A stretch of DNA of 64,000 nucleotides from Phycisphaerales bacterium (lineage in GTDB: Bacteria; Planctomycetota; Phycisphaerae; Phycisphaerales; UBA1924). The DNA lies in assembly GCA_030149165.1 (NCBI GenBank), contig JASBRY010000001.1, forward strand, positions 186,001 to 250,000, given 5' to 3'. The notes below the pieces were generated by a model that was not told the origin of the DNA, made no database searches, and saw only the letters and a list, made by a program, of their open reading frames with translations. Position 1 is the stretch's first letter. Each line of letters opens with the position of its first letter. Below, piece after piece: positions 8,520 to 62,700 of the stretch. The translations under genes and the position numbers were made by a program.

Positions 8520-8544
8520 GGGTGACTGTATGCCCTCATCCCAG

Positions 8545-8565
8545 CCCTCTCCCCGAGGGAGAGGG
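8545..8565. repeat. GC-rich hairpin between leuS and purB
   Basis: An 8-bp perfect inverted repeat (CCCTCTCC at 8545-8552 and GGAGAGGG at 8558-8565, loop CCGAG) fills much of the 54-base gap between the leuS stop and the purB start. The flanking text CCCTCATCCCAGCCCTCTCC matches a class of short palindromic elements that I know as common in intergenic regions of many Gram-negative genomes. No T-run follows on either strand, so it may be a mobile palindrome or an mRNA-end stabiliser rather than a classical terminator. Confidence 0.55.
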
Positions 8566-8573
8566 AGGAAGAG

Positions 8574-11414: not shown

Positions 11415-11485
11415 AGGAACTGAGTTTAGCACATCTGGGAGCGGATATTGGCGGCTTTGAGGGGTTCATCGGGTATCGTTTGAGC

Positions 11486-12217
11486 ATGTGCGGGCGATTT
11501 GCGCAAGTGTTCGAGGATAAGGATGTCTCGAGGATCGAGGAGATCCTCAGGGCATCGCTGCGGATCTCGGATGATGCGGCGGATCTGATGCTCGATTCGT
11601 TCAATATCGCGCCGTCGCAGGACGCGCTGGTGTGTGAAGCTGGGGAAGATGCGGCGGGGATGGCGCGAGCGAAGTTCGGATTGACCCCATCCTGGGCGAA
11701 GGACTCTTCGATCTCGGCGAAGATGATCAACGCTCGCAGCGAGTCGGTTCATGAGAAGCCCGCGTATCGAGGGCTGGTGGATCGTCGTCGGTGCGTGGTC
11801 CCGATGAGTGGGTTCTACGAGTGGGAGGATCTGGGATCGAAAAAGGGGAAGCAGCCTTGGTTCTTGTCGAGAGCGGATGGGGATGTGTTGATGCTCGCGG
11901 GATTGTGGGATCGGTGGGATGGGGGGCACGGGAAAGATGGATCGGTAGACTCATTCACGCTGCTGACGACGCAGGCGCGTGGGATGCTTGCGGAGTTGCA
12001 TCATCGGATGCCTGTCGTGGTGGATCCGGACGCGGCGAACGGTTGGTTGGGGATGAGTCTTGGAGTGGATGAGTTGCTCTCGATGCTCGATGCTGATGCG
12101 CTGCGTGGGTATCGCGTTGGCAAGCGTGTGAACTCCCCAAGCAATAACGACGCGGCGCTGCTTGATGAGGTTCGTGAGGGGGAGATCGAGCGGGACGGGA
12201 CGCTGTGGGGTTCGTGA
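11486..12217 (+). CDS. SRAP domain protein (HMCES/YedK family, abasic-site shield)
   Basis: A 243-residue SOS-response-associated peptidase-like protein. Family members crosslink to abasic sites in single-stranded DNA through Cys2 and protect them from cleavage. The start is fixed by this chemistry: ATG 11486 gives MCGRFAQ, placing the reactive Cys at position 2 after Met removal, whereas an upstream TTG would bury it. Other active-site landmarks are INARSES (Asn/Arg), GFYEWE (Glu) and HHRMPV (His). The length is in the normal range. The gene stands alone, divergent from leuS and convergent with the kinase gene one base away. No LexA-like operator was recognised upstream. Confidence 0.92.
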   Translation: MCGRFAQVFEDKDVSRIEEILRASLRISDDAADLMLDSFNIAPSQDALVCEAGEDAAGMARAKFGLTPSWAKDSSISAKMINARSESVHEKPAYRGLVDRRRCVVPMSGFYEWEDLGSKKGKQPWFLSRADGDVLMLAGLWDRWDGGHGKDGSVDSFTLLTTQARGMLAELHHRMPVVVDPDAANGWLGMSLGVDELLSMLDADALRGYRVGKRVNSPSNNDAALLDEVREGEIERDGTLWGS

Positions 12218-12218
12218 G

Positions 12219-15170: not shown

Positions 15171-15299
15171 GGATGCATGATAGAGGGGTGAGTCCAGAAT
15201 GAAGGGCCTAGAATCACGCTGATCGCCGGATGTGCGATTGCAAGTGATGAAATCAACCCGCTTTACCGCACCAGAACACTGCTTGGCGAGGAGACCAGG

Positions 15300-16412
15300 A
15301 TGACAACCGCGACGCTCGAACGGAACTTGACGATTGATGTGGCTTCTGTCCTTGAGGACGATGCGCTGCTGAGCTTCGATTCTCCGGCGATCTCCAAGGA
15401 TCGACTGAACCTGCCGGGTGGTGATTTTATCGATCGCGTGATGGCGATGAGTGATCGCAATCAGAATGTGCTCAACAACTACAACCGCATCCTCAATACG
15501 GGTCGGCTCGCGGGAACAGGGTACACCTCGATCCTTCCTGTTGACCAAGGCATCGAGCACAGCGCGGGCGCCTCGTTCGCTCCGAATCCGGACTACTTCG
15601 ATCCAGCGAACATCATCGAGCTCGCGATCGAAGGCGGCTGCAACGCGGTCGCTTCGACCTTCGGCGTGCTCGGCGCTACGGCTCGTAAGTACGCGCACAA
15701 AATCCCGTACCTCGTCAAGTTCAATCACAACGAGCTGATGACCTACCCCAACACCTTTAACCAGATCCCGTTCGGCACGATCAAGCAGTGCTGGGAGATG
15801 GGCGCCGCTGCTGTTGGTGCAACCATCTACTTTGGTTCTGAGGAGTCCAACGATCAGATCCAGTATGTCGCGGATATGTTTGCGGAAGCACACGACTACG
15901 GCATGGTCACTGTGCTCTGGTGCTACATGCGCAACAACGCGTTTAAAGTCAACGGCGTGGATTACCACGCATCGTCCGACCTGACCGCGCAAGCGAACCA
16001 CCTCGGTGTCACGATCCAAGCGGACATCATCAAGCAGAAGCTCCCCACCAACAACGGCGGGTACAAAGCACTCAACACGGGCGACTCGTCCTACGGCAAG
16101 TTTGACACTTCGATCTACACGAAGCTCAACTCCAGCGATGAGAACGGCAACGGCGGTCATCCGATCGATCTGTGTCGCTACCAGGTCGCGAACTGCTACA
16201 TGGGGCGCATGCCTCTGATCAACTCAGGCGGCGCTTCGAGCGGCGCGGGTGATCTGAAGGAAGCGGTCACGACCGCGGTCATCAACAAGCGTGCAGGAGG
16301 CATGGGCTTGATCTCAGGGCGCAAGGCGTTCCAGCGTCCGATGGGCGAGGGCGCGGCGCTGCTGCATGCGATTCAGGATGTGTACTTGGATGAATCAGTC
16401 ACCATCGCATAA
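15300..16412 (+). CDS. fbaB: Class I fructose-bisphosphate aldolase (DhnA/FbaB type)
   Basis: A 370-residue Schiff-base aldolase of the archaeal/DhnA type, cleaving fructose 1,6-bisphosphate to DHAP and glyceraldehyde 3-phosphate in glycolysis and gluconeogenesis. Landmarks are [12 protein letters not shown] near residue 80, VKFNHNEL, and the phosphate-binding end [15 protein letters not shown], which carries a family-conserved Lys. The length suits the longer FbaB members. A strong GAGGAG ribosome site lies eight to twelve bases before ATG 15300. The gene's last 23 bases overlap the start of the next ORF. Codon use is highly regular with C-ending codons, as expected for a highly expressed gene. 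Confidence 0.93.
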
Positions 16413-16947
16413 CTTCGGCACACCTTCGGATAACTGGGCTTCTGGCTCGGGACGAAGAAAGGACCCCACGCTTTGGGTTCCCGCGATGATCGTGGGTGCC
16501 TTGATCTTCGGTGTGGGTTGTGGATCTGGACTGATTGTCGGCTGGGTTGGCGGGACTCTGGACAGTGTTGGCGATATCTTCGAGCCGGCAAACATCATTG
16601 TGAATGCGAACTTCCCAGACAGCGTGACTGCGGGCGAACCCTTTGATCTGGAGGTCGTGGTTACCGACACCAAGGGTGAAGATCGCATGATTCAGGACAT
16701 TGATTTTTCTGGATCATTTTGTGACAACATGACTGTGGACTCTGTCACGCCGACCCCAAACAGCATGACTGTTGATCCTGCGTATCACGAGTATGTCTTC
16801 GGGAACTCATTATCCGCATCGCAAAGTACAACCTTCACCTTCCGGATCACACCGAACTATGACGGCGTGTTCACTGGTGATATCACTGTGTATGTAGACT
16901 CGTACAACTCTGAGTACACACCAGTGTCGTTTGTTGTTTCGGATTGA
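16390..16947 (+). CDS. Single-pass membrane protein with an extracytoplasmic beta-rich domain
   Basis: A 185-residue protein starting inside the last codons of the aldolase gene (ATG 16390, another frame). About 25 polar residues are followed by one membrane helix ([21 protein letters not shown]) and a beta-rich domain that begins [19 protein letters not shown], reminiscent of Ig-like or CARDB-like folds. Codon use is more AT-rich than in the aldolase. No family is recognised. Coupling to the aldolase is likely positional; I see no metabolic link. Confidence 0.65.
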
Positions 16948-17007
16948 CGATGGCATTCTATTTCTGCTAACTTCGCGTTATGCAGAGAGGCTATCTTGTT
17001 GAAGGAT

Positions 17008-18048
17008 TCAATCCGGCTCACTAGCTCGATCCGCTCTAAGATCGGGATCGAATACGACCCAATCTTGCATCGCGCCTTTTGCATGGTTTCCGAATCCGAA
17101 CCAGAGCGTTCCGTCATTCATCGCGACGCCGGCACCTGAGCTGCGTTGCTGTGGTTCATTTTCGCGCGTGTTTCGCTCCACGATCGGATCTTGACTCAGT
17201 GTTACATTGATCAAGTCTGGAGCGTTGGCTCGTCCATCTGGAGTCCCGCACCAGATCCAGAGTGATTGTCTCTGTTGATCCCACGCGAAGCATGGATTGC
17301 GGACCGCGTTGGTATCGGGGAGCTGCGCGATGTTGTCCCACTGCGGCTCTTTGTCACGCATGTTGAGCGTCCAAATCTGCGAAGACATACTCATGCTCGT
17401 TCCCGAGTCTTGTCCGCTTGCGATGATGAGTGTTCCTGATTCGGTATCGAAGCCGTAGGACATCCCGAATCGTGGGGATGGTTCTTCATCGAACTCTTGT
17501 CGCTCCCATACATACACGCCGTCTTTGAGCTGCGCGACGAAGGTGCCTTCTTGGAGACCTTGCTGTGAAACCCCTCCGAACACAATCAGGTTTCCTGTGG
17601 CTGGATCGGCGGCGAAGGCATGCAGCGCTCGTGCGGATGGAGGATCTTTCTGCTCGATGCGTTCGATGATGATCCGATCATCCTCGATCGTCACTGCGGA
17701 CAATGTGTTTGAGCACGCAAAGGTTTCGTTGTACCCTCCGAACAGCAGGTAGCGATTGTCGCTGATTTGCGCTTGGCGCATTGATCCCGCGGATTCTGGG
17801 AGTTCACCTTCAACGCGCATCGCGGTCCACTCTGCGTCGGATGTATCGAACCTCCACGCGTCTGCGAGCGGCGAGAGCTGCGGCTTGTATCCCGATCCCG
17901 CAAAGATGATGATGTCGTCGTCATGCACAAAGACGGATGTGTGCTCGCGTGGTGCTGGACCTGTGGTGTCGTCCCAGCTGTGCGCATTGACCCATTGGCC
18001 TGGATGCGATGTCGCGAGCGAGGCGATGGTTGTGAGTAGATGAATCAT
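17008..18048 (-). CDS. Exported Kelch-repeat beta-propeller protein
   Basis: A 346-residue protein with a short N-terminal signal-like helix (MIHLLTTIASLATS) followed by repeated Kelch blades: IIIFAGSGY, YLLFGGYNE, LIVFGGVSQQG, LIIASGQDS, each with following W and R positions. It probably folds as a five- to seven-bladed propeller outside the inner membrane. The ATG at 18048 overlaps the TGA of the upstream epimerase gene (ATGA, 18045-18048), so it is translationally coupled as the last gene of a three-gene operon. Binding partner unknown. Confidence 0.78.
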   Translation of the reverse strand: MIHLLTTIASLATSHPGQWVNAHSWDDTTGPAPREHTSVFVHDDDIIIFAGSGYKPQLSPLADAWRFDTSDAEWTAMRVEGELPESAGSMRQAQISDNRYLLFGGYNETFACSNTLSAVTIEDDRIIIERIEQKDPPSARALHAFAADPATGNLIVFGGVSQQGLQEGTFVAQLKDGVYVWERQEFDEEPSPRFGMSYGFDTESGTLIIASGQDSGTSMSMSSQIWTLNMRDKEPQWDNIAQLPDTNAVRNPCFAWDQQRQSLWIWCGTPDGRANAPDLINVTLSQDPIVERNTRENEPQQRSSGAGVAMNDGTLWFGFGNHAKGAMQDWVVFDPDLRADRASEPD

Positions 18049-19238
18049 CCCTCAGACTCGCGCTCGTTCCAGAGTTTGAGCACTTCTTGCTCGCGTTGTG
18101 CGGGGAGTCCGCCTCGGATTCGTTGGAGCCATTGGGTGTGTTGTTCTTCGCCGTACTGGTCGAGGATTTCTGGACCTCGTGTTTTGTAGTAGTTGAGCGC
18201 GTTCCAGTGGGAGTCTTCGAGTGATCGTGTTTTGAGTCCGGCTTTAATGGATTTGGCGGTCGAGATCTGACCTTGCCCTTGGTATCCCTCGGCTGAGTTG
18301 GGGACCCACGCGGGCATGTGTTGCCAAGCGTTCACGCCATTGGCGGCGAGGAAGTCCGCATCGACCCACTCGATCTTGGTATCGACATCAAGGTGCTTCT
18401 TCGCGACGCGCGTTGCGGATTCGACCATGTCCTTGCTGGTCCATTGACCTGCTGGGGAGATGCCGTTGTATGCGCCCATGTGTTTTTGCTCGATGCAGTG
18501 GATGGTGAAGTCTCCGAGATCGCGGACATCGATGACTTGGATGAAGTCTTCGCCGCTGCCTGGACCGATCATGGTGCCGCCCTCGCTGGCGCGGACGGAC
18601 CAGTAGGTGAAGCGTCCGGTGGTGTCGCGATCTCCGACGATGAGTCCTGGACGGATCACGCAGACCTTCCCTGGGAAGCGTTCTTCCGCGGCGGCTTCGA
18701 CGCGTGCTTTCATCGCGCCGTAGTGGACGCCCACTTCTCTGTGTGTCGTGATTCCTGCGGCGATTTCGTCGGAGACGGTTGCGAGCTCGCCTGTCTCGTC
18801 CATCCCTGGATTGGTGCGGGACGCGTAGACGGAGGTGGTGGAGATGACGACATACTGTCCCATGATCGGGAGGAGGATGTCCATCGTATCGGTGACGGTT
18901 TTAGGGACATAGGTGAAGGTGTCGATCACGGCGTCGAACTTGCGTCCATCGGCGACAAGTTTCTCGAGTCCGGAGAGGTCGGTGTAGCGATCGCCTTGGA
19001 TGTGTTCGATGTCCGGGAACATGTCAGGCGCGGTTTGTCCACGATTAAACAGCGTCACATTGTGTCCATGATCGAGGGCGCGCTGGACCATCTTGGGTCC
19101 GGCGAATCCGGTGCCTCCGAGCATGAGGATGTTGAGCTTCTTGGGCTTGAACATTCCTGATGCCAAAGCGGAAGGGGCAAGGGCGGCGCCGATGGTGAGG
19201 GCGCTGGCTTCGGTGATGAACTCGCGGCGGGTTTTCAT
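18045..19238 (-). CDS. Tat-exported NAD-dependent epimerase/dehydratase family protein
   Basis: A 397-residue extended short-chain dehydrogenase-like protein. A twin-arginine signal opens the protein (MKTRREFITEAS...LAPSALASG). The Rossmann motif is LNILMLGGTGFAG, giving GGxGFxG. The Y-x3-K active site is probably HYGAMKARVE. Export of a Rossmann protein by the Tat route suggests it leaves the cytoplasm folded with its cofactor bound. It is paralogous to the cytoplasmic protein at 32793-33812, which shares the GGT(G/Q)F start and the late WVPNSA/WAPAES region. The start overlaps the stop of the upstream transporter gene (ATGA), and its stop overlaps the Kelch gene start. Confidence 0.83.
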   Translation of the reverse strand: MKTRREFITEASALTIGAALAPSALASGMFKPKKLNILMLGGTGFAGPKMVQRALDHGHNVTLFNRGQTAPDMFPDIEHIQGDRYTDLSGLEKLVADGRKFDAVIDTFTYVPKTVTDTMDILLPIMGQYVVISTTSVYASRTNPGMDETGELATVSDEIAAGITTHREVGVHYGAMKARVEAAAEERFPGKVCVIRPGLIVGDRDTTGRFTYWSVRASEGGTMIGPGSGEDFIQVIDVRDLGDFTIHCIEQKHMGAYNGISPAGQWTSKDMVESATRVAKKHLDVDTKIEWVDADFLAANGVNAWQHMPAWVPNSAEGYQGQGQISTAKSIKAGLKTRSLEDSHWNALNYYKTRGPEILDQYGEEQHTQWLQRIRGGLPAQREQEVLKLWNERESEG

Positions 19239-20563
19239 GTTGTGATTTCCTGTGGTTGAACTTTGGTGTGCGTTGTTTGTGATACCGATGATGATCGTCT
19301 GTGTTGCATGAGCGCCAGCGAGATCGCGAGGCCTGACCAGAGAACCGCCAACGGCGCGGTGACCATGACCATCCCCCAGATCCCGATCGTCGCAGCGGCG
19401 AGTGCGTTCTCGATTCCCGCGCCCGCGACATCGCCCCCTCGATAGAGGAAGACATCGATGATGGGTTTGGCTTTGAATTTTTCTTGTCTTGACACGACAG
19501 AGAATAAGGTTTCGCGCGCCGGACGGATGATCGCGTAGCGGCTCGCGCGGTGGATCGCGTTGAAGGTGGCGAAGACGGCGAAGATCTGCCAACCCTCGAC
19601 ATTGGGTCGCGAGGAGATCCATCCGAGTGCCGTGAATCCCGCGAGGGTGATGAACGGGAGGACGCAGAGTGTGATCCCGATCCCGAGTCGCTTGATCAGC
19701 TGCGCCGTGACGAAGAGTTGCACGAGCAGTGTCGCGAGCTGCGTCCACATATCCAGCTGCGCGAAGAGCGCGACGCGCTGGGTGAGTTCTTCCTCGGCGT
19801 CGGCGACGATGTTTGCTTGCGTGAAGTAGATCAGCGTGGAGCTGATGGCAATGAAGGTGATGTACAGTCCGATCCCGAGCAGGTATGGGGATCGGAGTAG
19901 AGCTTTGGCGCCCTCGTGCCATGACCCACCGATGGGCTGGTGATGGTGTTCTTGTGTTTGATGCGCGACGGGTTTGACTCGGCGCATGATCTGCACCGCG
20001 ATCTCGAAGCACACGCAAGCGCCGAGCATCTGGAAAATCGGTCCGATGAGATCAGCGGTGTTCCACGCCGTGAATGATCCGAGCAGAGCGCCGAGTGTCC
20101 CCCCCACCCCGATGGAGGGGTAAAGTTTCTTTGCCTCTTCGAGCGTCCAGGAGTCGGCCATGAATCCCCAGAAGACTGAGACCATAAAGAGGTTGATGAC
20201 GGAGAGCCAAACATAAAACACATATCCGGAGTAGAGCTTGTACTCCTGCGGCAGTGCTTTGATGGAGATGACAAATACAACCAGACATGCGATGACAACG
20301 CGGTATCCGATCGTCATGAAACGCCTTGGGTTCGCTCTGCTGACGAGTGATCCGAACGCGAGGGTGATGATGAGCGAGACGATGCAGGTGGTGACGAACA
20401 ACCAGCGGAGGTCGCTCATGGAGCGCTGCACTCCCATGGCCTCTCTCAGCGGCCTGAGTAGGAAGTAGCCGTAGAGGAGCATGAAGAAGATCGCACCGGA
20501 GAGGACGATCTTCGGGAGGTTGCTTGCACGCGGATGTGGTGATGTGTCCTGTGTGTTGTTCAT
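19235..20563 (-). CDS. Npt1/Npt2-like (ATP/ADP translocase family) membrane transporter
   Basis: A 442-residue integral membrane protein with about 11-12 hydrophobic helices. The first helix region IFFMLLYGYFLLRPLREAMG and the later FAVFATFNAIHRASRYAIIRPARETLFS and EKFKAKPIIDVFLYRGGD segments resemble the TLC/Npt nucleotide-transporter-like branch of the major facilitator superfamily, known from intracellular parasites but also with free-living bacterial homologues of unknown substrate. It heads a tightly coupled operon with a Tat-exported epimerase-like protein and a Kelch protein. Transport of nucleotides is not demonstrated by the sequence. Confidence 0.75.
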   Translation of the reverse strand: MNNTQDTSPHPRASNLPKIVLSGAIFFMLLYGYFLLRPLREAMGVQRSMSDLRWLFVTTCIVSLIITLAFGSLVSRANPRRFMTIGYRVVIACLVVFVISIKALPQEYKLYSGYVFYVWLSVINLFMVSVFWGFMADSWTLEEAKKLYPSIGVGGTLGALLGSFTAWNTADLIGPIFQMLGACVCFEIAVQIMRRVKPVAHQTQEHHHQPIGGSWHEGAKALLRSPYLLGIGLYITFIAISSTLIYFTQANIVADAEEELTQRVALFAQLDMWTQLATLLVQLFVTAQLIKRLGIGITLCVLPFITLAGFTALGWISSRPNVEGWQIFAVFATFNAIHRASRYAIIRPARETLFSVVSRQEKFKAKPIIDVFLYRGGDVAGAGIENALAAATIGIWGMVMVTAPLAVLWSGLAISLALMQHRRSSSVSQTTHTKVQPQEITT

Positions 20564-51886: not shown

Positions 51887-52318
51887 CCTCAATGCGAGGT
51901 GAATTGATCTCAATTCGTGCTCGGCACCCCCTTTCTGTGCAACCATGCCCCTTTTTTGAGCGAATACAAGGACGGCAGCCGTTCTCTGGGTGCCCGTCTC
52001 GCTTGATCTGAGCGGGATGGCTGATTCGATCAGTAGGAAATGAGAAGGGCAGGTTCTCGGACCTGACAGGAATGGTGTTTCGGGCTCGTGGGCAAGGAGC
52101 GTCCGAATCCGTTGCAGACGGTACAGAATCCTCGGATTCTCGGCTGCGATCGGTGATTCCCCTTGAAAAAGGGCGAAATTCGGGCATCCTCTTCGTGCAC
52201 ACCCGGCTTGTGATCCGCGCACGGTTCACGGCGCGGGATGCGTTCTCGATTGGTCCAACCGGACCATTGACCAAACGGACGCGCAGGAACGCGTCTATCA
52301 GAGATGGGAAGAACAGTC
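51887..52318 (+). other. 432-base non-coding leader before the first subtilase
   Basis: No supported ORF occurs here. Visible structure is modest: a near-perfect inverted repeat AGAATCC/GGATTCT at 52125-52140, a GGGAAG ribosome-like sequence just before ATG 52319, and a duplicated AATTGATCTCAATT-like motif near 51890-51915. It may hold the promoter and a long 5-prime leader of the protease gene; no known riboswitch consensus was recognised. Confidence 0.5.
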
Positions 52319-54907
52319 ATGAAGCAATCCGCTCGCAATCACATCATGAACACAACCTCCGCTGCGGCGCTCACACTCGCGCTAATCAGCGGCACAGCGA
52401 TCGCAGGAGACTCCTACGCGAGTCCGGGCACGAAGCCTGCAAACGGGACGATGATCTCCGGCGTCGCGACCCCCGTCTCACTCACCAGCTCTCAACAGAA
52501 CACGATCCGCAACGCGTTCAACTGGACCGATCGTGATGCTTCGATCCTCGACGGTACCATCTCACCATCGACAGTCTTCACCGAAGTCATCGGACTCAAA
52601 GAACGCACCAACCGACTCAATGTCCAGGTCAAGAGCACGACACAGATGCTCCAGCAAGTCGCAACCGATGCCGCGATCGCTCGCGCTGACGGACCACAAG
52701 TCCTCGGCGTCGCTCGTGACGGACAAGTCCAGGACTGGGACACGGTCATGGCGCAGGTTGAACAACGACGCATCGACGCACGCTCGCGTTTGGCGCCATC
52801 GCTCATCGAAGCATTCGACGATGTCGACATGCACACGATCCATCTGCCTGCAGGAGTCAGCGCCGAGATCATGGCGGAGATCCTCATGCAGACAGGAGAC
52901 TATGAGTTTGTCTCCATCGATTGGCTCTGCTACCCAACAGATAACATCCCCAACGATCCACGCGTGAATCTGCAGTGGTACCACCCCTCCACGCGCATCG
53001 ACACCTACGGCGCCTGGGACTTCACGACTGGCAGCGGCGAGATCATCGCGGTCTGTGACTCCGGCGTGGACATCGACCACCCAGATCTTCAAGACGCGCT
53101 GGTCCCAGGATTCAATGCCGTGGACAACCTTGCTGAAATCGATGGCGGGTTTGTTGACGACAACCTCACTGGACACGGCACGCAGGTCGCTGGTGTTGCT
53201 GCGGCGACCGGGAACAACGGCGTGGGTATCTCGGGCATCGGTTGGAACTTCGGGATTATGCCTTGTAAGGTTTCCAACATCGCGTCCGGCAACGCGTTCC
53301 TTTCTGACATCCTTCAAGGAGCTCGTTGGGGTTCGGACAACGGCGCGTACGCATCGAACTGCTCTTACGGCGGTGCTGAAGATCCCGCGAGTTTCTCTAC
53401 AGGCGCACACATCCGCGCCGAAGGACACCACCTCGTCTTCGCATCGGGTAACGACGGCGTGGGTAACCAAACCAACGACTGGGACACCGTCACCATTGTC
53501 GGGGCTTCAAACTCCAGTGACAACTACGCCGGATTCTCGAACTTCGGGATTGGTATCGACTGTATCGCGCCTGGCGCGAGCGTCCAGTCCACCACACGCA
53601 CGGGCGGATACGCCAACACAACTGGAACGAGCTTTGCCGCTCCGATCACCGCTGGCGCGCTCATGCTCGTGCACTCCGCGAATCCGTCCCATGGACCAGC
53701 AGAGGTCGAGGAAATTCTCCTCAACGCATGTGACGACAAAGAAGGTCTTGGCGAGGACAACCTCACTGGACATGGACGCATCAATGTCGGACGAGCGGTC
53801 GAAGACGCGATCTTTGGACCTTCGCTCATCAGCCTTCCATACATGGATGAGTTCAACGATCCGACACTCACGCTCTGGCGCGACGCAGTTGGAGATGTCG
53901 AAGTCAATGAGGATGCGATGAATGAGCCGACTCCAGGCGGATCGCTCAATCTCGGATCCACGGCTGAGATCAACACCATCATGGTTCGCTGCACCGAACT
54001 CCAGTTCACCACAGGCGAGATCAACTTCCAGACACAGCACATCGGGACTGAAGCCGGCGAGGACCTGCTCGTCGAGTACCGCACTGTGCTCAATACATGG
54101 GACACACTCGCGATTATTCCATCAGACGGCAACGATCAAAGCGAGTTTACCTTCCATCGCTACGAGTTCCCGTTCCTCGGATTTCATGACATGTTCCGCT
54201 TGCGTTTCTCAACTGCAGGAGACGAAGCAAACGACAACTGGTACATCGATGATGTGAACATCCAGTACTTCACAGGAAACACGGTCCCTTGGTTCGTCGA
54301 TTTCGAGAACGGCATCTCCCTCAACTTCGACTGGGAGATCAATGAAGGGATCGCGAGTATCGCCGCGGACAACGAACCTTCAGGCACGCAGAGCGTGAAC
54401 CTCGACAACACCGATTCCATGACCTCGAAAGGCTTGGACATGACGAGCCAGGTCCCACCAATTTATGTTCAGTTCTACACCCAGCACAAGGGTGTTGAGA
54501 ACGGCGAGTCTCTCCATGTCGAGTACCTCGATCTTCTTGGATCGTGGCAAGACCTAACCACAGTCGTTTCTGACGGCGTGGACCAGAGCGAGTTTGAACT
54601 CACACAGCTCGAACTCCCGATCTTCGCATTCGGCGGGAACCTCAAGCTCCGCTTTACGGCACAAGGTGACGAGGCAAACGACGACTGGTTCGTCGACAAC
54701 ATCGCGATCACCACTGAGTTCATCGACGAGGTCGATCCGTGTCCTGCGGATCTCAACGACGACGGCTCACTCAACTTCCTTGATGTTTCCGCGTTCCTCT
54801 CGCTGTACGGACTGCAGGATCCAGCTGTTGACTTCCAAGCCGACGGTTCATTTAACTTCCTTGATGTGTCCGCATTCCTTTCCGCGTACGGGATGGGATG
54901 CCCATAA
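52319..54907 (+). CDS. Secreted subtilase (S8) with C-terminal dockerin-like tail, copy 1
   Basis: An 862-residue exported serine protease. A signal peptide (AAALTLALISGTAIAGD) precedes a fervidolysin-type prodomain (HLPAGVSAEIMAEILMQTGDY). The catalytic triad is Asp (AVCDSGVDIDHPDL, about 246), His (GHGTQVAG, about 285) and Ser (GTSFAAP, about 438), with oxyanion Asn in FASGNDG. Two similar beta-sandwich repeats (QHIGTEAGEDLLVEY... and QHKGVENGESLHVEY...) follow. The tail begins after Cys: CPADLNDDGSLNFLDVSAFL and DGSFNFLDVSAFLSAYGMGCP. It leads a two-gene unit with the next subtilase. Confidence 0.92.
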   Translation: MKQSARNHIMNTTSAAALTLALISGTAIAGDSYASPGTKPANGTMISGVATPVSLTSSQQNTIRNAFNWTDRDASILDGTISPSTVFTEVIGLKERTNRLNVQVKSTTQMLQQVATDAAIARADGPQVLGVARDGQVQDWDTVMAQVEQRRIDARSRLAPSLIEAFDDVDMHTIHLPAGVSAEIMAEILMQTGDYEFVSIDWLCYPTDNIPNDPRVNLQWYHPSTRIDTYGAWDFTTGSGEIIAVCDSGVDIDHPDLQDALVPGFNAVDNLAEIDGGFVDDNLTGHGTQVAGVAAATGNNGVGISGIGWNFGIMPCKVSNIASGNAFLSDILQGARWGSDNGAYASNCSYGGAEDPASFSTGAHIRAEGHHLVFASGNDGVGNQTNDWDTVTIVGASNSSDNYAGFSNFGIGIDCIAPGASVQSTTRTGGYANTTGTSFAAPITAGALMLVHSANPSHGPAEVEEILLNACDDKEGLGEDNLTGHGRINVGRAVEDAIFGPSLISLPYMDEFNDPTLTLWRDAVGDVEVNEDAMNEPTPGGSLNLGSTAEINTIMVRCTELQFTTGEINFQTQHIGTEAGEDLLVEYRTVLNTWDTLAIIPSDGNDQSEFTFHRYEFPFLGFHDMFRLRFSTAGDEANDNWYIDDVNIQYFTGNTVPWFVDFENGISLNFDWEINEGIASIAADNEPSGTQSVNLDNTDSMTSKGLDMTSQVPPIYVQFYTQHKGVENGESLHVEYLDLLGSWQDLTTVVSDGVDQSEFELTQLELPIFAFGGNLKLRFTAQGDEANDDWFVDNIAITTEFIDEVDPCPADLNDDGSLNFLDVSAFLSLYGLQDPAVDFQADGSFNFLDVSAFLSAYGMGCP

Positions 54908-54988: not shown

Positions 54989-57385
54989 ATGTCTTTGAAA
55001 CTTACTCTTGCCAAAGCGACCGCTGTAGTCGCACTCATGTCCGCTTCTGGAATTGCGACGAGCGCATTCGCAGGGCCAACCGCGGATGCACCTAAGAACT
55101 CGCAGAGCCAATCCATCTCGGCATCTGCGAAACTTGATGCCGTCAAGGCATCATTCGATCTGCTCCAAGGCGACGAGCAACGCATGCTCGAAGCGCTCCA
55201 GAGCCCCCTCCAGTTCACAGAGATGCAGGGCTCTCGCGAGTTCACACGCGAACTGATTGTCCACGCAAACGAGGGCAAGGTCGCGAATGCTCAGTCGCGT
55301 CTCTCACGCTCGCTGGTCAAGTCCAGCGCTTTCGTGAACGAGTATGTCGTCAAGGTTCCAGAGGGTGTGAGCGAAGGCGAAATGGCCGCGATGCTCATGT
55401 CGACTGGAGACTACCTGTTCGTCGAACCAAACTGGACCCTCTTCCCGCTCGCAGTCCCGAACGATTCACAGTACGGATCGAGCTGGCAGCACACGCGCAT
55501 TCAGTCCGCAAACGCATGGGACCTGCACACCGGCGAGAGCGACATCATCGTCGCGGTTTGTGACTCTGGTGTAGACACCAACCACCCAGACCTCGAAGAC
55601 GCGTATGTCCCAGGATACAACGCGGTCAACAACCAAACAGAAGTCAACGGCGGACAAGTTGAAGATGTCAACGGACACGGGACGTTCGTCTCCGGATGTG
55701 CCGCCGCTCAAGGGAATAACGCTCGCGGCGTTGTCGGCGTGGGCTGGGACTTCAGCGTCATGCCGATCCGTGTGAGCAACAACTCCAGCGGCACCGCGAG
55801 TGGATTTGACATCCTTGAAGGCGCCCGCTGGGCCGTAGACAACGGCGCCCACGCAATCAATGCATCCTTCTCAGGAGGTACAAGCACTTCGAATCAAGTC
55901 ACAGCTCGCTACATCATCGATCGAGGCGGATTGCTCTTCTGGTCTTCAGGGAACAACGGGAGTCTGATCACATACGACGGACCTGACATCGTCATTGTCG
56001 GATCCACGACATCTTCAGACAACCGATCCTCATTCTCAAACTTCGGACCTGCGGTCGATATCACTGCTCCTGGATCCTCCGTCCGCTCTACACGGCGCGG
56101 AGGGACCTACGGCAACGGATCGGGCACAAGCTATGCGTCTCCGATCGCCGCCGGTGTTGGAGCGATGATTTACTCAGTGCGTGATGACCTGAGCGGTCGC
56201 GATGTGCAGGACATCCTGTACCGCAGCGTCGATGACCTCGGCGCACCAGGACGCGACGATTCGTTCGGTCGCGGTCGTGTCAACACCTTCAACGCGATCC
56301 AAGTGGCGCAGTCATATGTCCCTCGCTATAACCTTCCGATCGATGAGTCCTTCGATTCCGCATCGTGGACTGAGATCTTCGATAGCACCGGTACTCCCGC
56401 GACTGTTCCAGACGCAGAGTCTGGTACAGGATCTGTCCTCGAACTCAACGGCAATGACCAGATCACTTCGGTCTTCCTTGCCGGGCGCTCCGCGGCAACA
56501 TTCCCTGGAATCAGCTTCTCGTTCCGCACTGTCGGAGTCGAAGCGGGTGAATCCCTGCTCGTCGAAATCCTGACCGAAGATGGAAACTGGGAATCTATCT
56601 ATGACTACGCGTCCACTGGCGCCGATAGCGATGGATACATCGATGTCGCGTTCCAACTCCCAACAACTTTCCTCTGGCACGGTGTGCAGCTCCGCATGAG
56701 CACCCCAGGATCGGACATCAACGATCAATGGCTCATCGACGATCTCTTCGTCGGTGTGCTTGAAGCTGAGCCCACAGCACCGCTCGTTGATTCATTCGAT
56801 TCTGGTCTCATCTCACCACTCAAGTGGGACGACATCGATGGAGCCAGCGTCGAGATCGTTGGCAGCACCTACGCAGCATCAATGACCGGTGAAGCACTCC
56901 TCGAATCACAAGATGTCGCGATGTTCCAGTTCGGAATCGTCCCAGGATACATCCATCTGGATCTTTGGGCCGACGCAAACGCAGGCGCGGATGACACCAT
57001 CCTCGTCGAAGTCCGCAATGTGCTCGGAAACTGGGAAACACTCGACACCCTCGACGGCAGCGAGCTTGGTTCTTCGCCGCAGGTGTTCGAGTACCAGACC
57101 CCTCCTGCGGCGTGGGGTAACGACATCGGTCGCGTCCGCTTCACCACTGCGGGTAATGACGCAATCTACATCGACAATGTGTACTATGGCCCAGATGAGC
57201 TGACGCAGATGTGTTCACCTGCGGACTTTGCAGAGCCGTATGGCCAACTCAACTTCCTCGATGTTTCTGCGTTCTTGAGTGCGTTCGGGAGTAACGATCT
57301 TGCCGCAGACCTTGATGGGAGCGGGACCTTCAACTTCCTTGATGTGTCCGAGTTCCTGAGCGTCTTCGGAGCAGGCTGCCCGTAA
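54989..57385 (+). CDS. Secreted subtilase (S8) with C-terminal dockerin-like tail, copy 2
   Basis: A 798-residue paralogue of the preceding protease: signal peptide (AVVALMSASGIATSAFAG), prodomain (KVPEGVSEGEMAAMLMSTGDY), triad Asp about 192 (AVCDSGVDTNHPDL), His about 230 (NGHGTFVSG) and Ser about 381 (GTSYASP), with the oxyanion Asn in WSSGNNG. Beta-sandwich repeats follow. The dockerin-like tail starts MCSPADF; its first loop is degenerate (AEPYGQLNFLDVSAFL, one residue longer and missing acidic ligands), and the second is canonical (DLDGSGTFNFLDVSEFL), ending AGCP. AGGAG precedes the ATG. A clear terminator follows. Confidence 0.92.
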   Translation: MSLKLTLAKATAVVALMSASGIATSAFAGPTADAPKNSQSQSISASAKLDAVKASFDLLQGDEQRMLEALQSPLQFTEMQGSREFTRELIVHANEGKVANAQSRLSRSLVKSSAFVNEYVVKVPEGVSEGEMAAMLMSTGDYLFVEPNWTLFPLAVPNDSQYGSSWQHTRIQSANAWDLHTGESDIIVAVCDSGVDTNHPDLEDAYVPGYNAVNNQTEVNGGQVEDVNGHGTFVSGCAAAQGNNARGVVGVGWDFSVMPIRVSNNSSGTASGFDILEGARWAVDNGAHAINASFSGGTSTSNQVTARYIIDRGGLLFWSSGNNGSLITYDGPDIVIVGSTTSSDNRSSFSNFGPAVDITAPGSSVRSTRRGGTYGNGSGTSYASPIAAGVGAMIYSVRDDLSGRDVQDILYRSVDDLGAPGRDDSFGRGRVNTFNAIQVAQSYVPRYNLPIDESFDSASWTEIFDSTGTPATVPDAESGTGSVLELNGNDQITSVFLAGRSAATFPGISFSFRTVGVEAGESLLVEILTEDGNWESIYDYASTGADSDGYIDVAFQLPTTFLWHGVQLRMSTPGSDINDQWLIDDLFVGVLEAEPTAPLVDSFDSGLISPLKWDDIDGASVEIVGSTYAASMTGEALLESQDVAMFQFGIVPGYIHLDLWADANAGADDTILVEVRNVLGNWETLDTLDGSELGSSPQVFEYQTPPAAWGNDIGRVRFTTAGNDAIYIDNVYYGPDELTQMCSPADFAEPYGQLNFLDVSAFLSAFGSNDLAADLDGSGTFNFLDVSEFLSVFGAGCP

Positions 57386-57488: not shown

Positions 57489-60400
57489 TTAAGGACAACC
57501 CGCGCCGTACTGGAGCAGGAACTCAGAGATGTCCAGGAAGTTGAACTGTCCGTTGTCGTCCAGATCCGCGATGGGATCCTGAGCGCCGTACGCGCCGAGG
57601 AATCCGGACACATCCAAGAAGTTGAGTGAGCCGTCACCGGTAAAGTCCGCGACGCATCCCTGATCCTGCTCGCACACAAACTGTGTGATCCGGATATTGT
57701 CGAGTCCCGCTTCGATGACATTCTGCTGACCAACATCGTCCGCAATGAATCGGAACCGCATCGTCGAAGAAACGCCGATCTCATCACCCACAACAATCGT
57801 GTCGCTGCGCCACGCGCCCGCGACGCTCGTGCTTGAGCGGAGCGTCGTCCAAGTCGATCCGCCGTTGGTGGATGCCTCGACCACCCAAGTGTCGCCGTTG
57901 ACTTCGCCCGTCGGGATGTCGGAGTACCAGTAATCGAACGAGAACTCTCCGCCGTCGCTCATGTCGTAAATCGGCGAGGTGAGGATTGTCGTCCCTTCGT
58001 CCACATCGGAGTTGCACGAGTTCCCGGCATCGTTGTCGGTCACCCAGCAGATCCCGGATCCATCGGAGTCTTCTCCCGGAGCGCCTCTGCTCGAACAATC
58101 AACAGGAACTCCACGCGCCCACTGTCCATCGAGCGCGTCGCCGCTGACAGTCCAGCCGTTGTCGTTCTGGAAGTTGTCCGTGAGCACGAGCTGGATCTCT
58201 CCGACTTCCGAATGCTCCGGATTGCTCGCGCCAGACGGCGGAGTCACAACTTCTCCGGCACTCTGACCGCTCGCGGAGATGTAGTACTCCACGAACTCGC
58301 CACACTCGGCGCCTGGGATCGATCCTGTGTATGAGCCGTCGTTGTTATCAATCATCGAGGCACTCGTGTACCCACCGCTCGCGTATCGGTAGTTGAGCGT
58401 AACCGATCCGGGAACGACGGTGTCCACGCCTTCGTTGACGAAGGCAGTGATCTCGATCGGTTGTCCAGGAAGGACCGCCGCTGGAGCGGGTTCTAAGAGT
58501 GAGAGCGAGAGCAATCCCGCGCCGATATCCAGCGCCGAAGCAATCGCGAAGCTCTGCGGCCCATCACTGACGGATGTCCCCAACACTTGCACTTGCCAAA
58601 CCCCTGATTGTGGATTCTCCACAAAGACCTGCTCGACATTGTTCAGGTGATCCTCCTGCGTGCGCACCGCGCCGGCGCTGGGACTCGATGGATTCAGTGT
58701 CCATGGATAGTGACGAGTCCCGCTCGGATCGGTCACGATCAGATCCAGATCATTGACCAGCGCTTGAGAGACATTGGGCGCGCCCGCTGGATCGTCCCAG
58801 ACCAGTGTGATCCGGAACGGACCATCGCCCTCTTCCACCATCACGGTGTAGTTCGCGCTCGTCCCCTGATCGACGCTTTCTTCGCGGAAGTTCCCAGTGC
58901 GAAGGAAGTCGATGCTGTTGACAGTGCGGATCGAGCCGTATCCGCTCTGATAGTCTGGACCTGTGTTGAGGATATCTTCAGCGCCCTCGATGAGGATCGC
59001 TTTCATGAGTTGGTTGGTCGGATCTCCCCACGCCGGATACTGCGATCTGAAGTCCTGAAGAATCAGTGCACCGACCCCCGCTGCTGTTGGAGACGCCATG
59101 GAAGTTCCGCACAGTGAGATGTACTGCGAGTTGCTTCCGTCTCCAGTCGAGGTGACGCCGTTGTCTCCGCCGCTCTGACATCCCGGCGCAGACACGACTG
59201 GGCGCAAGCGTCCATCATCCGATGGACCCCAACTCGAGAAACTCGTCATTGAGTCGTCGTTGGAGTTGAGCGCACCGATCGAGATCGCGTTCTTGTTGTT
59301 GCTTGGAGGTGCTGTCGTGCCGTACCCGGTCCCGCAGCGTCCGTTGCCGCGTTCGTTGCCCGCGGCCCAGAACACAATGATCGGTTCACCAAGCGAACCA
59401 CGCACGACATTGTCGATCGTCCCGGCAGTAATGCCGTAATCGCCGTGCCATGAGCAGTCATAACCGTTCTGCGCAACATTGGATCCGATCGAGTTGTTCG
59501 CGATCGAAGCGCCGAGCGACAACGCGAGCGAGTAATCCGATTCCAGGTCTCCGGGATCGGTGTAGAGGAATCCGGCGCCGAGACCACCTGCGACCTCGAA
59601 TCCAGCGCCGAGCAGGTTCACTCCTGGCGCCATGCCACGATGGTTGAATGTCGTGCTACCGTCGCCTCCGATGGTTCCCGCGACATGCGTCGCGTGGTAA
59701 TGCACGGCTGTGGAATCAATGTTCGTTGCTCGTCCCGAGAAATCATTGTGTGATTCGCGAATAGTGCCACCGTCGTACACAAGCACCGTCACCCCAGTCC
59801 CATCGAGCGAGTACGGCGACGACTGCGCGGTGTTCACCTGGGTAATCCCGCGATTCGATGCATTCGTCACTTCCATTGGAGGAAGCGGAGGCTCCACCCA
59901 CTGCACGCGCTCGTCGTTCGCGAGCAGCTTCAAGTTCTTGTAAGGCATCTCCACAACCACTGTGTTCATCGACATCACGACCGAACGCACGCGCCCATTG
60001 TGCGCACGCACCATCGCATCGATGTCAACGGATGACGCATCCACATCGCGGTGCAGCATGACATACGCCGCGACGGTTGGATTGGTGAGTTCTCCCGCAA
60101 GCTCACCAGACTGCACTTTGACGCTGCTCGCGCCGACGATCGACCAATCGGGGATCTCGTCGTTCTGGATCTTCGGATGCAACTTGTGTGCCGTGGAAAT
60201 CGGTCCCGCTTCGATTACACGATCCGCGATCGCGAAGGTGTCCGCATCGATCGCGACGCGCGCAAAGTAGGTCGTCTCGCTGACAGGACTGAGCAGTTCC
60301 AGACCCTCTCCGCTTAGTTGCTCGCGTGTGCTCTGATCCGGAGTTTGTGCGAATCGAACGAGGACATACCCGCCGTGCGCTGTCGGAGTGTTCTTGCTGG

Positions 60401-60551
60401 ATGCGTCGAGCAGGACGCGCTGAGCGGGCTCAACACTCAATCGCGCTTGCTGAGGATTCGCTTGTTCGTTCTTCCACTGCACTGGAGCGCCGGCGGCATT
60501 GCCGCTGATCGACGCGAGGATCGCGATCATCGAGGGAGCGAATCGGCGCAT
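57489..60551 (-). CDS. Large secreted subtilase (S8) with dockerin-like tail, copy 3 (different architecture)
   Basis: A 1020-residue exported protease. The signal peptide is RRFAPSMIAILASISGNAAGA; an upstream ATG at 60599 is an alternative start. A long N-terminal prosegment leads to the triad Asp about 260 (VLVYDGGTIRESHNDF), His about 289 (YHATHVAGTIGG) and Ser about 484 (LCGTSMASPTAAG), with oxyanion Asn in FWAAGNERG. After it comes a P-domain-like beta-sandwich (VWQVQVLGTSVSDGPQSFA), then more beta modules. The end is QGCVADFTGDGSLNFLDVSGFL and DDNGQFNFLDISEFLLQYGAGCP. It is not closely similar to copies 1 and 2 outside the tail. Confidence 0.9.
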   Translation of the reverse strand: MRRFAPSMIAILASISGNAAGAPVQWKNEQANPQQARLSVEPAQRVLLDASSKNTPTAHGGYVLVRFAQTPDQSTREQLSGEGLELLSPVSETTYFARVAIDADTFAIADRVIEAGPISTAHKLHPKIQNDEIPDWSIVGASSVKVQSGELAGELTNPTVAAYVMLHRDVDASSVDIDAMVRAHNGRVRSVVMSMNTVVVEMPYKNLKLLANDERVQWVEPPLPPMEVTNASNRGITQVNTAQSSPYSLDGTGVTVLVYDGGTIRESHNDFSGRATNIDSTAVHYHATHVAGTIGGDGSTTFNHRGMAPGVNLLGAGFEVAGGLGAGFLYTDPGDLESDYSLALSLGASIANNSIGSNVAQNGYDCSWHGDYGITAGTIDNVVRGSLGEPIIVFWAAGNERGNGRCGTGYGTTAPPSNNKNAISIGALNSNDDSMTSFSSWGPSDDGRLRPVVSAPGCQSGGDNGVTSTGDGSNSQYISLCGTSMASPTAAGVGALILQDFRSQYPAWGDPTNQLMKAILIEGAEDILNTGPDYQSGYGSIRTVNSIDFLRTGNFREESVDQGTSANYTVMVEEGDGPFRITLVWDDPAGAPNVSQALVNDLDLIVTDPSGTRHYPWTLNPSSPSAGAVRTQEDHLNNVEQVFVENPQSGVWQVQVLGTSVSDGPQSFAIASALDIGAGLLSLSLLEPAPAAVLPGQPIEITAFVNEGVDTVVPGSVTLNYRYASGGYTSASMIDNNDGSYTGSIPGAECGEFVEYYISASGQSAGEVVTPPSGASNPEHSEVGEIQLVLTDNFQNDNGWTVSGDALDGQWARGVPVDCSSRGAPGEDSDGSGICWVTDNDAGNSCNSDVDEGTTILTSPIYDMSDGGEFSFDYWYSDIPTGEVNGDTWVVEASTNGGSTWTTLRSSTSVAGAWRSDTIVVGDEIGVSSTMRFRFIADDVGQQNVIEAGLDNIRITQFVCEQDQGCVADFTGDGSLNFLDVSGFLGAYGAQDPIADLDDNGQFNFLDISEFLLQYGAGCP

Positions 60552-60668
60552 AGACAGTAGAGTTGGTGTGTGAATCCCGCTGGGTGACCTTGAGAACATA
60601 TCGGTCTCCGGAATGTCAGTCGATCGCGAGCCCAAACAACACGAGCATCAAACTACCGACTCAAATCA

Positions 60669-60705: not shown

Positions 60706-62610
60706 TTATGGACATCCCTGCGCGTAGAGCGACAGGAACTCGGACACATCGAGGAAGTTCCACGATGCATCCTCAACAAGGTCGGCGCTTGGATCCTGAT
60801 TGCCGTACGCAGCAAGGAACGCGGAGACATCGAGGAAGTTGAGATCGCCCTCGCCGGTGAAGTCTGCTGGACATCCGCCGTTGAACTCGATCATCGCAAA
60901 GTCCATCTCGACCTTTGGGCTCTTGCCGTGCAGCACCCACTGGTCGTACGCGATCTCGCCGGTGCTCGGATTCATCGGATCGACACCAGTCTGATCGTTC
61001 TCATCGCGCAGGAATTCGATGTACTCCTTGCTCACGAGCTGGAAGTACACACGAACCTCGGCTTTGGTCGCACCAGCAGGGATCGCATAATCAGTATCGT
61101 CCCAGTACTGCCCGTCCATGTAGGAGTACGCGACAGGTTCTGCTTGCACAGACTCGAATCCAGCGTTCGTGAATCCACGAGGAGGAATGCGGTTGTCCTT
61201 GATCCATACATTGTTTGCGGCGAAGTGGAAGCCTTCCCCTTCGGGGATGCCGGTCGCTGCAGAAACCGCGGCATCAACACCCAGCTTCGCTTCGTAGACC
61301 TTGGTGTCACCCGTGGAAAGTACAGCGGTCGAATCGTCGTACGCGCCGTGCTCAGCTACCAGGTTGTTCATGTCGTCGAGGAAGCGAACATTGATCCACA
61401 TCCGGCGGCCTTCAGGGTAACCAGTCGGGAGCTTGTGACCAGTCTGGTTGATGATGCGCACATTCAGGTTCGAGCCGTCTTCATCAAGCTCGAGATCAGA
61501 CGCGTTTTCAAGCATCATCTCAGCACGAGCGATGGAGTCCGCCGCGAGTTCTGCGGTCAGACCAGTCTCGAGGTCTGGGTACAGATCACGCACCGCGTTG
61601 AGCACCCAGTTGTTGCCGCCGTTGAAATGGTGCGCCGGCATATCCGGACGAGGGGTTGGATCAATGCGGCACGCGTTCTCAGTCACATCCGGCATGTGAC
61701 AGTCCTGGCAGGTCGAAACCTCGATCTTGTTTCCACCGAAGCGGCCACCCATATCGATCGGTGCGATTGCAAAGTCACTCTGCAACCACTCGGAGTAGGT
61801 CCGCTCGACCGGGAACATGTCGTACTTATCAAAGGTCTCGTGTGGAGTTCCCAGCGCGTTGAGTGCGTAGGTCCCGTCGGGTTGCTTACTGAACGCTGGG
61901 TTGGACACATCGTGACAAGTTGCGCACATCGCGGATTGCTGATGGAACGGCGAGAACTCCCACGCGTGGAAAGAGAAGTCACCAAGATCAAATGGGCCGC
62001 GACGACGATCGTAGAAGTCCACCACATACGCACCAGTGTGTGGGTTTGGAGTAACCTCATCGACCCCAGCGTTCAATCCCTTAATCCCTTGGAAGACTTC
62101 AAGGTCTGCCAATGGCACCGGGTTTGGATTATCAATATTCTCAGGATCCACCATGCGGTGACAGAAGTTACACGAAACTCCTTGGAAATCGATCCCCTCA
62201 AGCGCCGAGCCATCGGTTGGTTCCGAGCGCCCGCTCAACCAACCATTGGGTGTGTGACAACGCAGACACAGGTCGCCAGCGAACGCGACATCCTGATTTG
62301 CGATCGACAACGCCGCATGGAAGATCGGATCGCGCGTTGCTTGCCCCATCATCGAACTGACCCAACCTTCGTACGGATCAAAGTCGTGCTCTGGAACCGA
62401 GTGACACGCGGCACAGTTATTTGAATCTGAAACCGGGTGACTCAATGTCTCAGGTTGTGTGCCTGGAAGGAAGAAGTCATCGATCGTGGTCGGCACAGGC
62501 GCCGAGATCGCGGTAGTCGCAAGACCAGTCAGCGCGATCAACCCGGCCATCACGCCGGTCAATGCTGTTCGGTGTTTATACAAAGCGACACCGTCTCCAA
62601 GACCATTCAT
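60706..62610 (-). CDS. Pentaheme cytochrome c with dockerin-like C-terminal tail
   Basis: A 634-residue exported protein. The signal (TGVMAGLIALTGLATTAISAP) predicts export, where haems are attached. Five CxxCH motifs are present: CAACH (about 66), CLRCH (115), CNFCH (147), CATCH (229) and CQDCH (301), similar in order to cytochrome c554/c-type respiratory nitrite or hydroxylamine partners, though the exact family is uncertain. Further His residues (HKLPTGYPEGRR region) may be distal ligands. Its C-terminus is the two-repeat tail GCPADFTGEGDLNFLDVSAFL and DASWNFLDVSEFLSLYAQGCP. GGAGG sits seven bases before ATG 62610. Confidence 0.9.
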   Translation of the reverse strand: MNGLGDGVALYKHRTALTGVMAGLIALTGLATTAISAPVPTTIDDFFLPGTQPETLSHPVSDSNNCAACHSVPEHDFDPYEGWVSSMMGQATRDPIFHAALSIANQDVAFAGDLCLRCHTPNGWLSGRSEPTDGSALEGIDFQGVSCNFCHRMVDPENIDNPNPVPLADLEVFQGIKGLNAGVDEVTPNPHTGAYVVDFYDRRRGPFDLGDFSFHAWEFSPFHQQSAMCATCHDVSNPAFSKQPDGTYALNALGTPHETFDKYDMFPVERTYSEWLQSDFAIAPIDMGGRFGGNKIEVSTCQDCHMPDVTENACRIDPTPRPDMPAHHFNGGNNWVLNAVRDLYPDLETGLTAELAADSIARAEMMLENASDLELDEDGSNLNVRIINQTGHKLPTGYPEGRRMWINVRFLDDMNNLVAEHGAYDDSTAVLSTGDTKVYEAKLGVDAAVSAATGIPEGEGFHFAANNVWIKDNRIPPRGFTNAGFESVQAEPVAYSYMDGQYWDDTDYAIPAGATKAEVRVYFQLVSKEYIEFLRDENDQTGVDPMNPSTGEIAYDQWVLHGKSPKVEMDFAMIEFNGGCPADFTGEGDLNFLDVSAFLAAYGNQDPSADLVEDASWNFLDVSEFLSLYAQGCP

Positions 62611-62700
62611 CGCACATCCTCCAAGATTTCCTTGTGCACTGATCACACGACCCGATCGGATCGTTCACCAATACTATTGTCGCCAAACCAGTGAAAGGAT

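Follow-up and report, generated by a model that had tools for sequence, protein, structure and literature searches.

A pentahaem cytochrome with a dockerin-like C-terminal tail that recurs on about ninety proteins of a Phycisphaerales genome

Introduction

Why a multihaem cytochrome c should end in the same dockerin-like tail as the secreted proteases encoded around it is the question raised by a gene at 60706..62610, on the (-) strand, of the window analysed here (the whole stretch of 64,000 nucleotides, positions 186001-250000 of contig C7 of a Phycisphaerales genome of 2.84 Mb, 94% complete and labelled G000). An initial annotation of this DNA had noticed five CxxCH sites and the tail in one protein, had regarded a cytochrome as unexpected cargo and had brought in docking of the cellulosome type. 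The combination of haem sites and tail is borne out by the analysis described below; the docking and the unexpectedness are not.

The explanation preferred here, to which we assign a probability of roughly 0.6, is that an exported cytochrome of the c552/ExtKL (PHC) fold carries its F-hand tail as a shared address tag, by which a receptor would hold it at the cell surface, where it would exchange electrons with co-tagged neighbours.

The gene and its pentahaem core

The encompassing open reading frame extends from 60706 to 62646 (-). The better start is ATG 62610, which the initial annotation had already implied and immediately 5' of which the sequence reads a GGAGG ribosome-binding site (62618..62622, (-)); with a stop codon at 60706-60708 the product has 634 amino acids. 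From N- to C-terminus it comprises a predicted Sec signal peptide (residues 1-37, ...ATTAISA/PVPTT, 62500..62610, (-), assigned by eye and by a crude hydrophobicity test), five CxxCH sites, an Ig-like domain and a tail of 54 residues. The sequence predicts an electron-transfer protein with five haems that is exported and bears the dockerin-like tag of its genome.

The haem-binding sites, read in frame on the (-) strand, are CAACH (62401..62415), CLRCH (62254..62268), CNFCH (62158..62172), CATCH (61912..61926) and CQDCH (61696..61710). Since all five are in frame and 99–100% conserved among 118 homologues, they are not chance occurrences.

A phmmer search of the PDB with the single cytochrome sequence gave no match; a profile built from 50 homologues matched 5ze8, the low-potential pentahaem cytochrome c552 of Thermochromatium tepidum. 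The haem-free AlphaFold2 model of the protein (pLDDT 87.6, pTM 0.86) matched the same structure with a Foldseek E of 4.9e-15 and aligned to it with Z 24.3 and rmsd 2.6 over 332 residues (model range 57-576), the runner-up (Z 6.8) being restricted to the Ig-like part. The five-haem domain that matches 5ze8 in the model and fold search covers residues ~57-310 (61681..62442, (-)), and the Ig-like beta-sandwich, delimited from model and alignment and including the conserved H392 (GHKLPTG) and H462, covers residues ~370-576 (60883..61503, (-)). On the model, the core is a PHC-type pentahaem-plus-Ig cytochrome of the T. tepidum c552 / ExtKL kind; 5ze8 has been grouped with ExtKL of Geobacter and with sPHC of cable bacteria (PMC11976967). 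Two other assignments were rejected: the ExtKL equivalog (NF040886 score of 19 against a curated cut-off of 250 bits) and the decahaem MtrC/OmcA proteins (a weak local match to PF22113, 30.1–30.2 against a cut-off of 30 bits, and a score far under what TIGR03507 requires).

Outside the CxxCH sites, four histidines (H215, H327, H392 and H462) are at least 97% conserved among the 118 homologues. Because five haems face four conserved distal histidines, one haem may be open or ligated by a residue other than histidine. The same count would suit a protein that is mainly catalytic, of reductase or peroxidase type, instead of an electron carrier, and the related sPHC of cable bacteria, with a pentacoordinate haem, has been classed as potentially catalytic (PMC11976967). 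Methionine or non-conserved residues could, however, serve as haem ligands and the T. tepidum homologue has no known substrate, so that a chiefly catalytic role appears rather unlikely and the cytochrome is treated below as an electron carrier.

The dockerin-like tail

The tail (residues 580-633, 60712..60873, (-)) matches the NCBIfam family NF041540 (dockerin_GC) with 37.3 bits, against a curated cut-off of 29. Behind each of its two 12-residue F-hand Ca-loops lies a helix, at 18-29 and at 45-57 of the tail model, and Asp is nearly invariant at 583/594 and 610/621. Loop 1 (residues 583-594, 60829..60864, (-)) reads DFTGEGDLNFLD and loop 2 (residues 610-621, 60748..60783, (-)) reads DLVEDASWNFLD; position 11 is Leu in both. 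Loop 2 has Val, which is no Ca ligand, at position 3, so the Ca binding predicted for this loop may be weak.

The description of the tail as dockerin-like is further supported by a profile built from the tail set, every PDB match of which is a dockerin or a dockerin-containing scaffoldin. The type I dockerin family PF00404 did not match the cytochrome tail at its gathering cut-off, and 30 of 70 tails match it at E ≤ 0.05. With the tail alone, the best Foldseek match was a weak one to a dockerin of Clostridium cellulolyticum (E 4.6), which is suggestive only.

Tails among the homologues

A search of 251 genomes from the order with the core only detected relatives of the cytochrome in 135. A set of 118 non-redundant homologues was assembled from this order-wide search and from a scan of genome contigs, whose query alignment included the tail and which is therefore a sample somewhat biased to tailed proteins, a bias that the order-wide search does not share. 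A C-terminal extension is present in 116 of the 118 and is dockerin-like in 102 (88 with two canonical F-hand loops, three with one, and 11 judged degenerate or variant by eye). The remaining C-termini are four T9SS Por tails, about ten with another beta domain and two that are tailless. The Por tails, all above the TIGR04183 cut-off, belong to two records of Flavobacteriaceae, one of Bacteroidales and one of Zixibacteriota.

As far as these sequences indicate, the class of tail follows lineage while the core is constant, dockerin-like in Planctomycetota and T9SS in Bacteroidota and Zixibacteria, so that one cytochrome core bears different, lineage-typical C-terminal tails in different phyla; throughout the order the family appears usually to be dockerin-tailed. 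Nine homologues, whose MAGs are of other planctomycetes or unassigned (L110, L111, L114, L117, L119, L120, L122, L134 and L154), have an unnamed C-terminal domain of ~100–130 aa in place of the dockerin, and those of L110 and L114 gave no match to NCBIfam.

The initial annotation had foreseen that a tail missing from close relatives of identical haem order would point to a one-off fusion or an assembly error. The g1 cytochromes, which are close relatives and share that order, are instead tailed in 10 of 10 cases from nine genomes, the paralogue of the source genome among them. Absence of the tail from two of the 118 homologues (L060 and L061, from genomes G033 and G014) is what a chance or recent fusion would have in its favour, against the 116 extended and 102 dockerin-tailed proteins, which span several genera and families. 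An independent Phycisphaeraceae MAG (L091, WUAJ01000045.1) encodes a protein 97% identical and of identical architecture, which excludes an assembly error. Both forms of this explanation are discarded as extremely improbable.

Neighbouring genes and synteny

The initial annotation had also placed the same tail on secreted proteases and adhesin-like proteins, and in the window three neighbouring subtilases and two further open reading frames carry it. The subtilase (PF00082) at 57489..60635 (-) adjoins the cytochrome in genomes G170 and G176 as well, and two others lie at 54989..57385 (+) and 52304..54907 (+). On the other side are P271 (62819..63634, (-)), an exported protein of 271 aa, and the tailed C-terminal end of P1005 (63691..63999, (-)), a repeat protein of 1005 aa that runs beyond the window; both match no known family and are syntenic in the genus.

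A check of synteny, which had been proposed at the outset, placed the cytochrome of the genus among tailed genes for a MauG-like di-haem protein, P331, GSDH (a PQQ-type dehydrogenase), P271, P1005 and a subtilase, in a set that varies by genome. The MauG-like and GSDH genes lie outside the window, as does a paralogous cluster at 13.5-24.5 kb of contig C7, in which a second tailed pentahaem cytochrome (59% identical) is again paired with a tailed MauG-like protein. FG-GAP proteins are encoded in this cluster too (L068, G000:C7:6000-25900, 7592-19804). In other families the cytochrome occurs without these neighbour genes and retains its tail.

A genome-wide tag and its cargo

The source genome has 94 matches to NF041540, 83 of them above the cut-off. 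When 90 tails were viewed in context, each protein had a single tail, and 89 of the tails ended no more than 6 residues from the C-terminus. A hydrophobic N-terminal stretch was found by a crude test in 74 of the 90 tail proteins, and several of the others are cut off at the edge of the stretch analysed or have a doubtful start. The cargo includes peptidases (subtilases and M10/M12/M14/M43/M64-type enzymes), FG-GAP proteins, GH16, an amylase, GH57 and the GSDH protein. Five haem enzymes besides the window cytochrome bear the tail, among them two MauG-like proteins, a protein combining CBM56 with a di-haem oxidoreductase (DHOR) and an animal-type haem peroxidase. With a tail general to about 90 proteins, these haem enzymes included, and a cytochrome family usually tailed across the order, the cytochrome is no surprising cargo; it is probably one of several redox proteins sharing one extracellular label.

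Single carriers in the source genome include the CBM56-DHOR protein, which has 928 aa and ends in the GC dockerin tail (L178:155-2941, (-), contig C6), the animal-type haem peroxidase (PF03098, E 3e-158) and a protein that matches an IgA-peptidase-like M64 family.

A possible recognition code at loop position 11

In clostridial dockerins the specificity for cohesins is set by loop positions 10, 11, 17, 18 and 22 (PMC5748583). Both repeats of the tails in the source genome have Phe without exception at position 10 and Leu almost without exception at position 11. Counts of the corresponding DNA patterns gave 155 for the Leu form and 10 for the Phe form; 12 relatives, of which 8 share the genus, gave counts of 90–275 for the Phe form and 4–9 for the Leu form, the latter near the reversed-pattern control. 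Position 11 is hence Leu in about 150 repeats of the source genome vs Phe in 12 of 12 relatives, and the Leu form is also found in L091. Identity over the whole tail, 0.62 within the source genome and 0.42–0.63 between orthologous tails, separates genomes weakly, and the argument therefore rests on position 11.

A common reader of the tags would be the simplest cause of so uniform a code. Synonymous codon choice in the motif is likewise more uniform than elsewhere in the carrier genes, for which reason gene conversion may play a part, as may spreading of copies of the tail; Ser14, on the other hand, is encoded by TCN as well as AGY codons, and Leu11 by four codons. From its sequences, the tail has the look of an address label used throughout the genome, which one common receptor would recognise. 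A near-complete switch in some 150 repeats, set against 12 relatives, makes such a receptor directly testable: if it exists, the receptor in a Phe genome should be a poor binder of tags taken from a Leu genome.

Cohesins, secretion and a proposed reader of the tag

Cohesins of family PF00963 gave no match in the source genome at E ≤ 0.001 and none at E ≤ 10. Docking of the classical cellulosome type, as the initial annotation had it, is therefore unsupported, and a classical cellulosome was rejected for the lack of a cohesin and the few glycosidase cargos. Across the order PF00963 exceeds its cut-off in 8 of 121 genomes, mostly of family f2 and none of family f1, where GC tails abound.

The tails might nevertheless dock on divergent cohesins of a scaffold or anchor, the cytochrome being a subunit of an extracellular multi-enzyme complex. 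Both canonical F-hand loops and the uniform 10/11 dyad are as in dual-mode dockerins (PMC5748583, PMC4728124), cohesins do exist within the order, chiefly in f2 genomes, and a cohesin-dockerin 'planctosome' with peptidase cargo has been proposed for Nemodlikiaceae, freshwater Phycisphaerae (PMC6461901); proteases are a main cargo in the source genome too. The missing PF00963 match at E ≤ 10 and the small number of genomes above the cut-off, with none from f1, make true cohesin-dockerin docking unlikely, although an assembly 94% complete may miss the gene and a cohesin may be too divergent for Pfam.

Alternatively the tail could be a C-terminal export or sorting signal, like the CTD of the T9SS, read during passage of the outer membrane, possibly processed, and no docking module in the mature protein. 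Its single copy at the extreme C-terminus, its many unrelated cargos in a genome with no detectable cohesin, and its replacement by T9SS Por tails in homologues of T9SS-bearing phyla agree with such a signal. The T9SS protein SprA (TIGR04189) is, however, absent from the source genome at E ≤ 1, for which reason export by a T9SS was rejected; the tail is dockerin-like in profile and fold, weak as the fold match is, and the T9SS tails of the homologues are an analogy in position, not in mechanism. We also know of no export machine that recognises F-hand domains, and a pure sorting signal seems doubtful. The reading developed below is that of a shared address tag by which a receptor would retain the protein.

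A search for porin-cytochrome partners, suggested by the initial annotation, yielded no match to the MtrB/PioB porin (PF11854) in the source genome, and an Mtr-type porin conduit was rejected. The genome encodes three secretins and a CcsA-like protein. On contig C6 (L213, G000:C6:423000-432500) a CcsA-like assembly protein is clustered with an NrfA-type cytochrome c552, a cytochrome of mono-haem type and a NosZ-like protein, a gene content that suggests nitrite and N2O reduction.

A model for the tagged cytochrome

The predicted signal peptide would direct the cytochrome to Sec export, and haem would be attached in the periplasm, for which a CcsA-like assembly gene is encoded. The protein would then cross the outer membrane, possibly by a type II system given the three secretins, after which a single shared receptor, recognising Phe10 and Leu11 of each loop, would hold it at the surface or in the matrix. 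In that position it would donate electrons to, or accept them from, co-tagged neighbours, for which the di-haem enzyme of MauG type and GSDH, of PQQ type, are the most plausible candidates. Placement at the surface or in the matrix is plausible because of the tail, the co-tagged neighbours and the T9SS tails of homologues. Against the receptor stand the absence of PF00963 (E ≤ 10) and SprA from the source genome and the lack of a Ca ligand at position 3 of loop 2.

If the surface location holds, extracellular electron transfer would proceed without an Mtr-type porin, in Phycisphaerales, to our knowledge a group not noted for it. Dockerin-type tails in Phycisphaerales are probably a general extracellular tag, redox proteins included. 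A wider proposal, possible but put forward tentatively and short of even odds, is that the approximately 90 GC dockerins make up a system for sorting proteins to the surface that is general in Phycisphaerales and equivalent in function to the T9SS tail, its one receptor being specific to the species and its code (Leu for Phe at loop position 11) to the genome. Such a system would display an extracellular redox set of pentahaem cytochromes, di-haem enzymes (MauG-like and DHOR), a PQQ-type dehydrogenase and an animal-type haem peroxidase.

Comparison with known systems

The solved chain of T. tepidum cytochrome c552 (5ze8, 385 residues) shares with the window protein an Ig-like domain that comes after five haem sites (332/385 residues, 24% identity) and stops at that domain, whereas the window protein adds the dockerin tail; PMC11976967 assigns the homologue no function. 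ExtKL/PHC proteins of Geobacter and cable bacteria have the same pentahaem plus Ig-like architecture (PMC11976967), and the window cytochrome has a sub-threshold match to NF040886; they differ in that the window cytochrome has the extra tail and no ext operon or porin was seen alongside it.

The T9SS sorting domain (TIGR04183) occupies the equal position on homologous cytochromes of Bacteroidota and Zixibacteria; its sequence is unrelated to that of the tail, and the source genome has no SprA. Like clostridial type I dockerins, the tails have two F-hand loops and recognition positions 10 and 11 that are uniform per genome; unlike the clostridial cellulosome, they occur with no detectable cohesin or scaffoldin and mostly on proteases, haem enzymes and adhesin-like proteins, with few glycosidases. 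The planctosome (PMC6461901) is similar in having dockerins on peptidases in Phycisphaerae and different in that its model includes cohesin proteins, none of which is detectable here; cytochromes do not figure in the part of that report used for comparison.

With NF041540 the tail shares a score above the curated cut-off, the extreme C-terminal position and a conserved Cys at either end, and the domain family itself is already named. The literature searched held no description of a cytochrome cargo on NF041540 tails or of a genome-wide Leu/Phe switch. What is new in relation to these systems is that a set of GC-dockerin tags, with no detectable cohesin, has a PHC-type cytochrome among its cargo.
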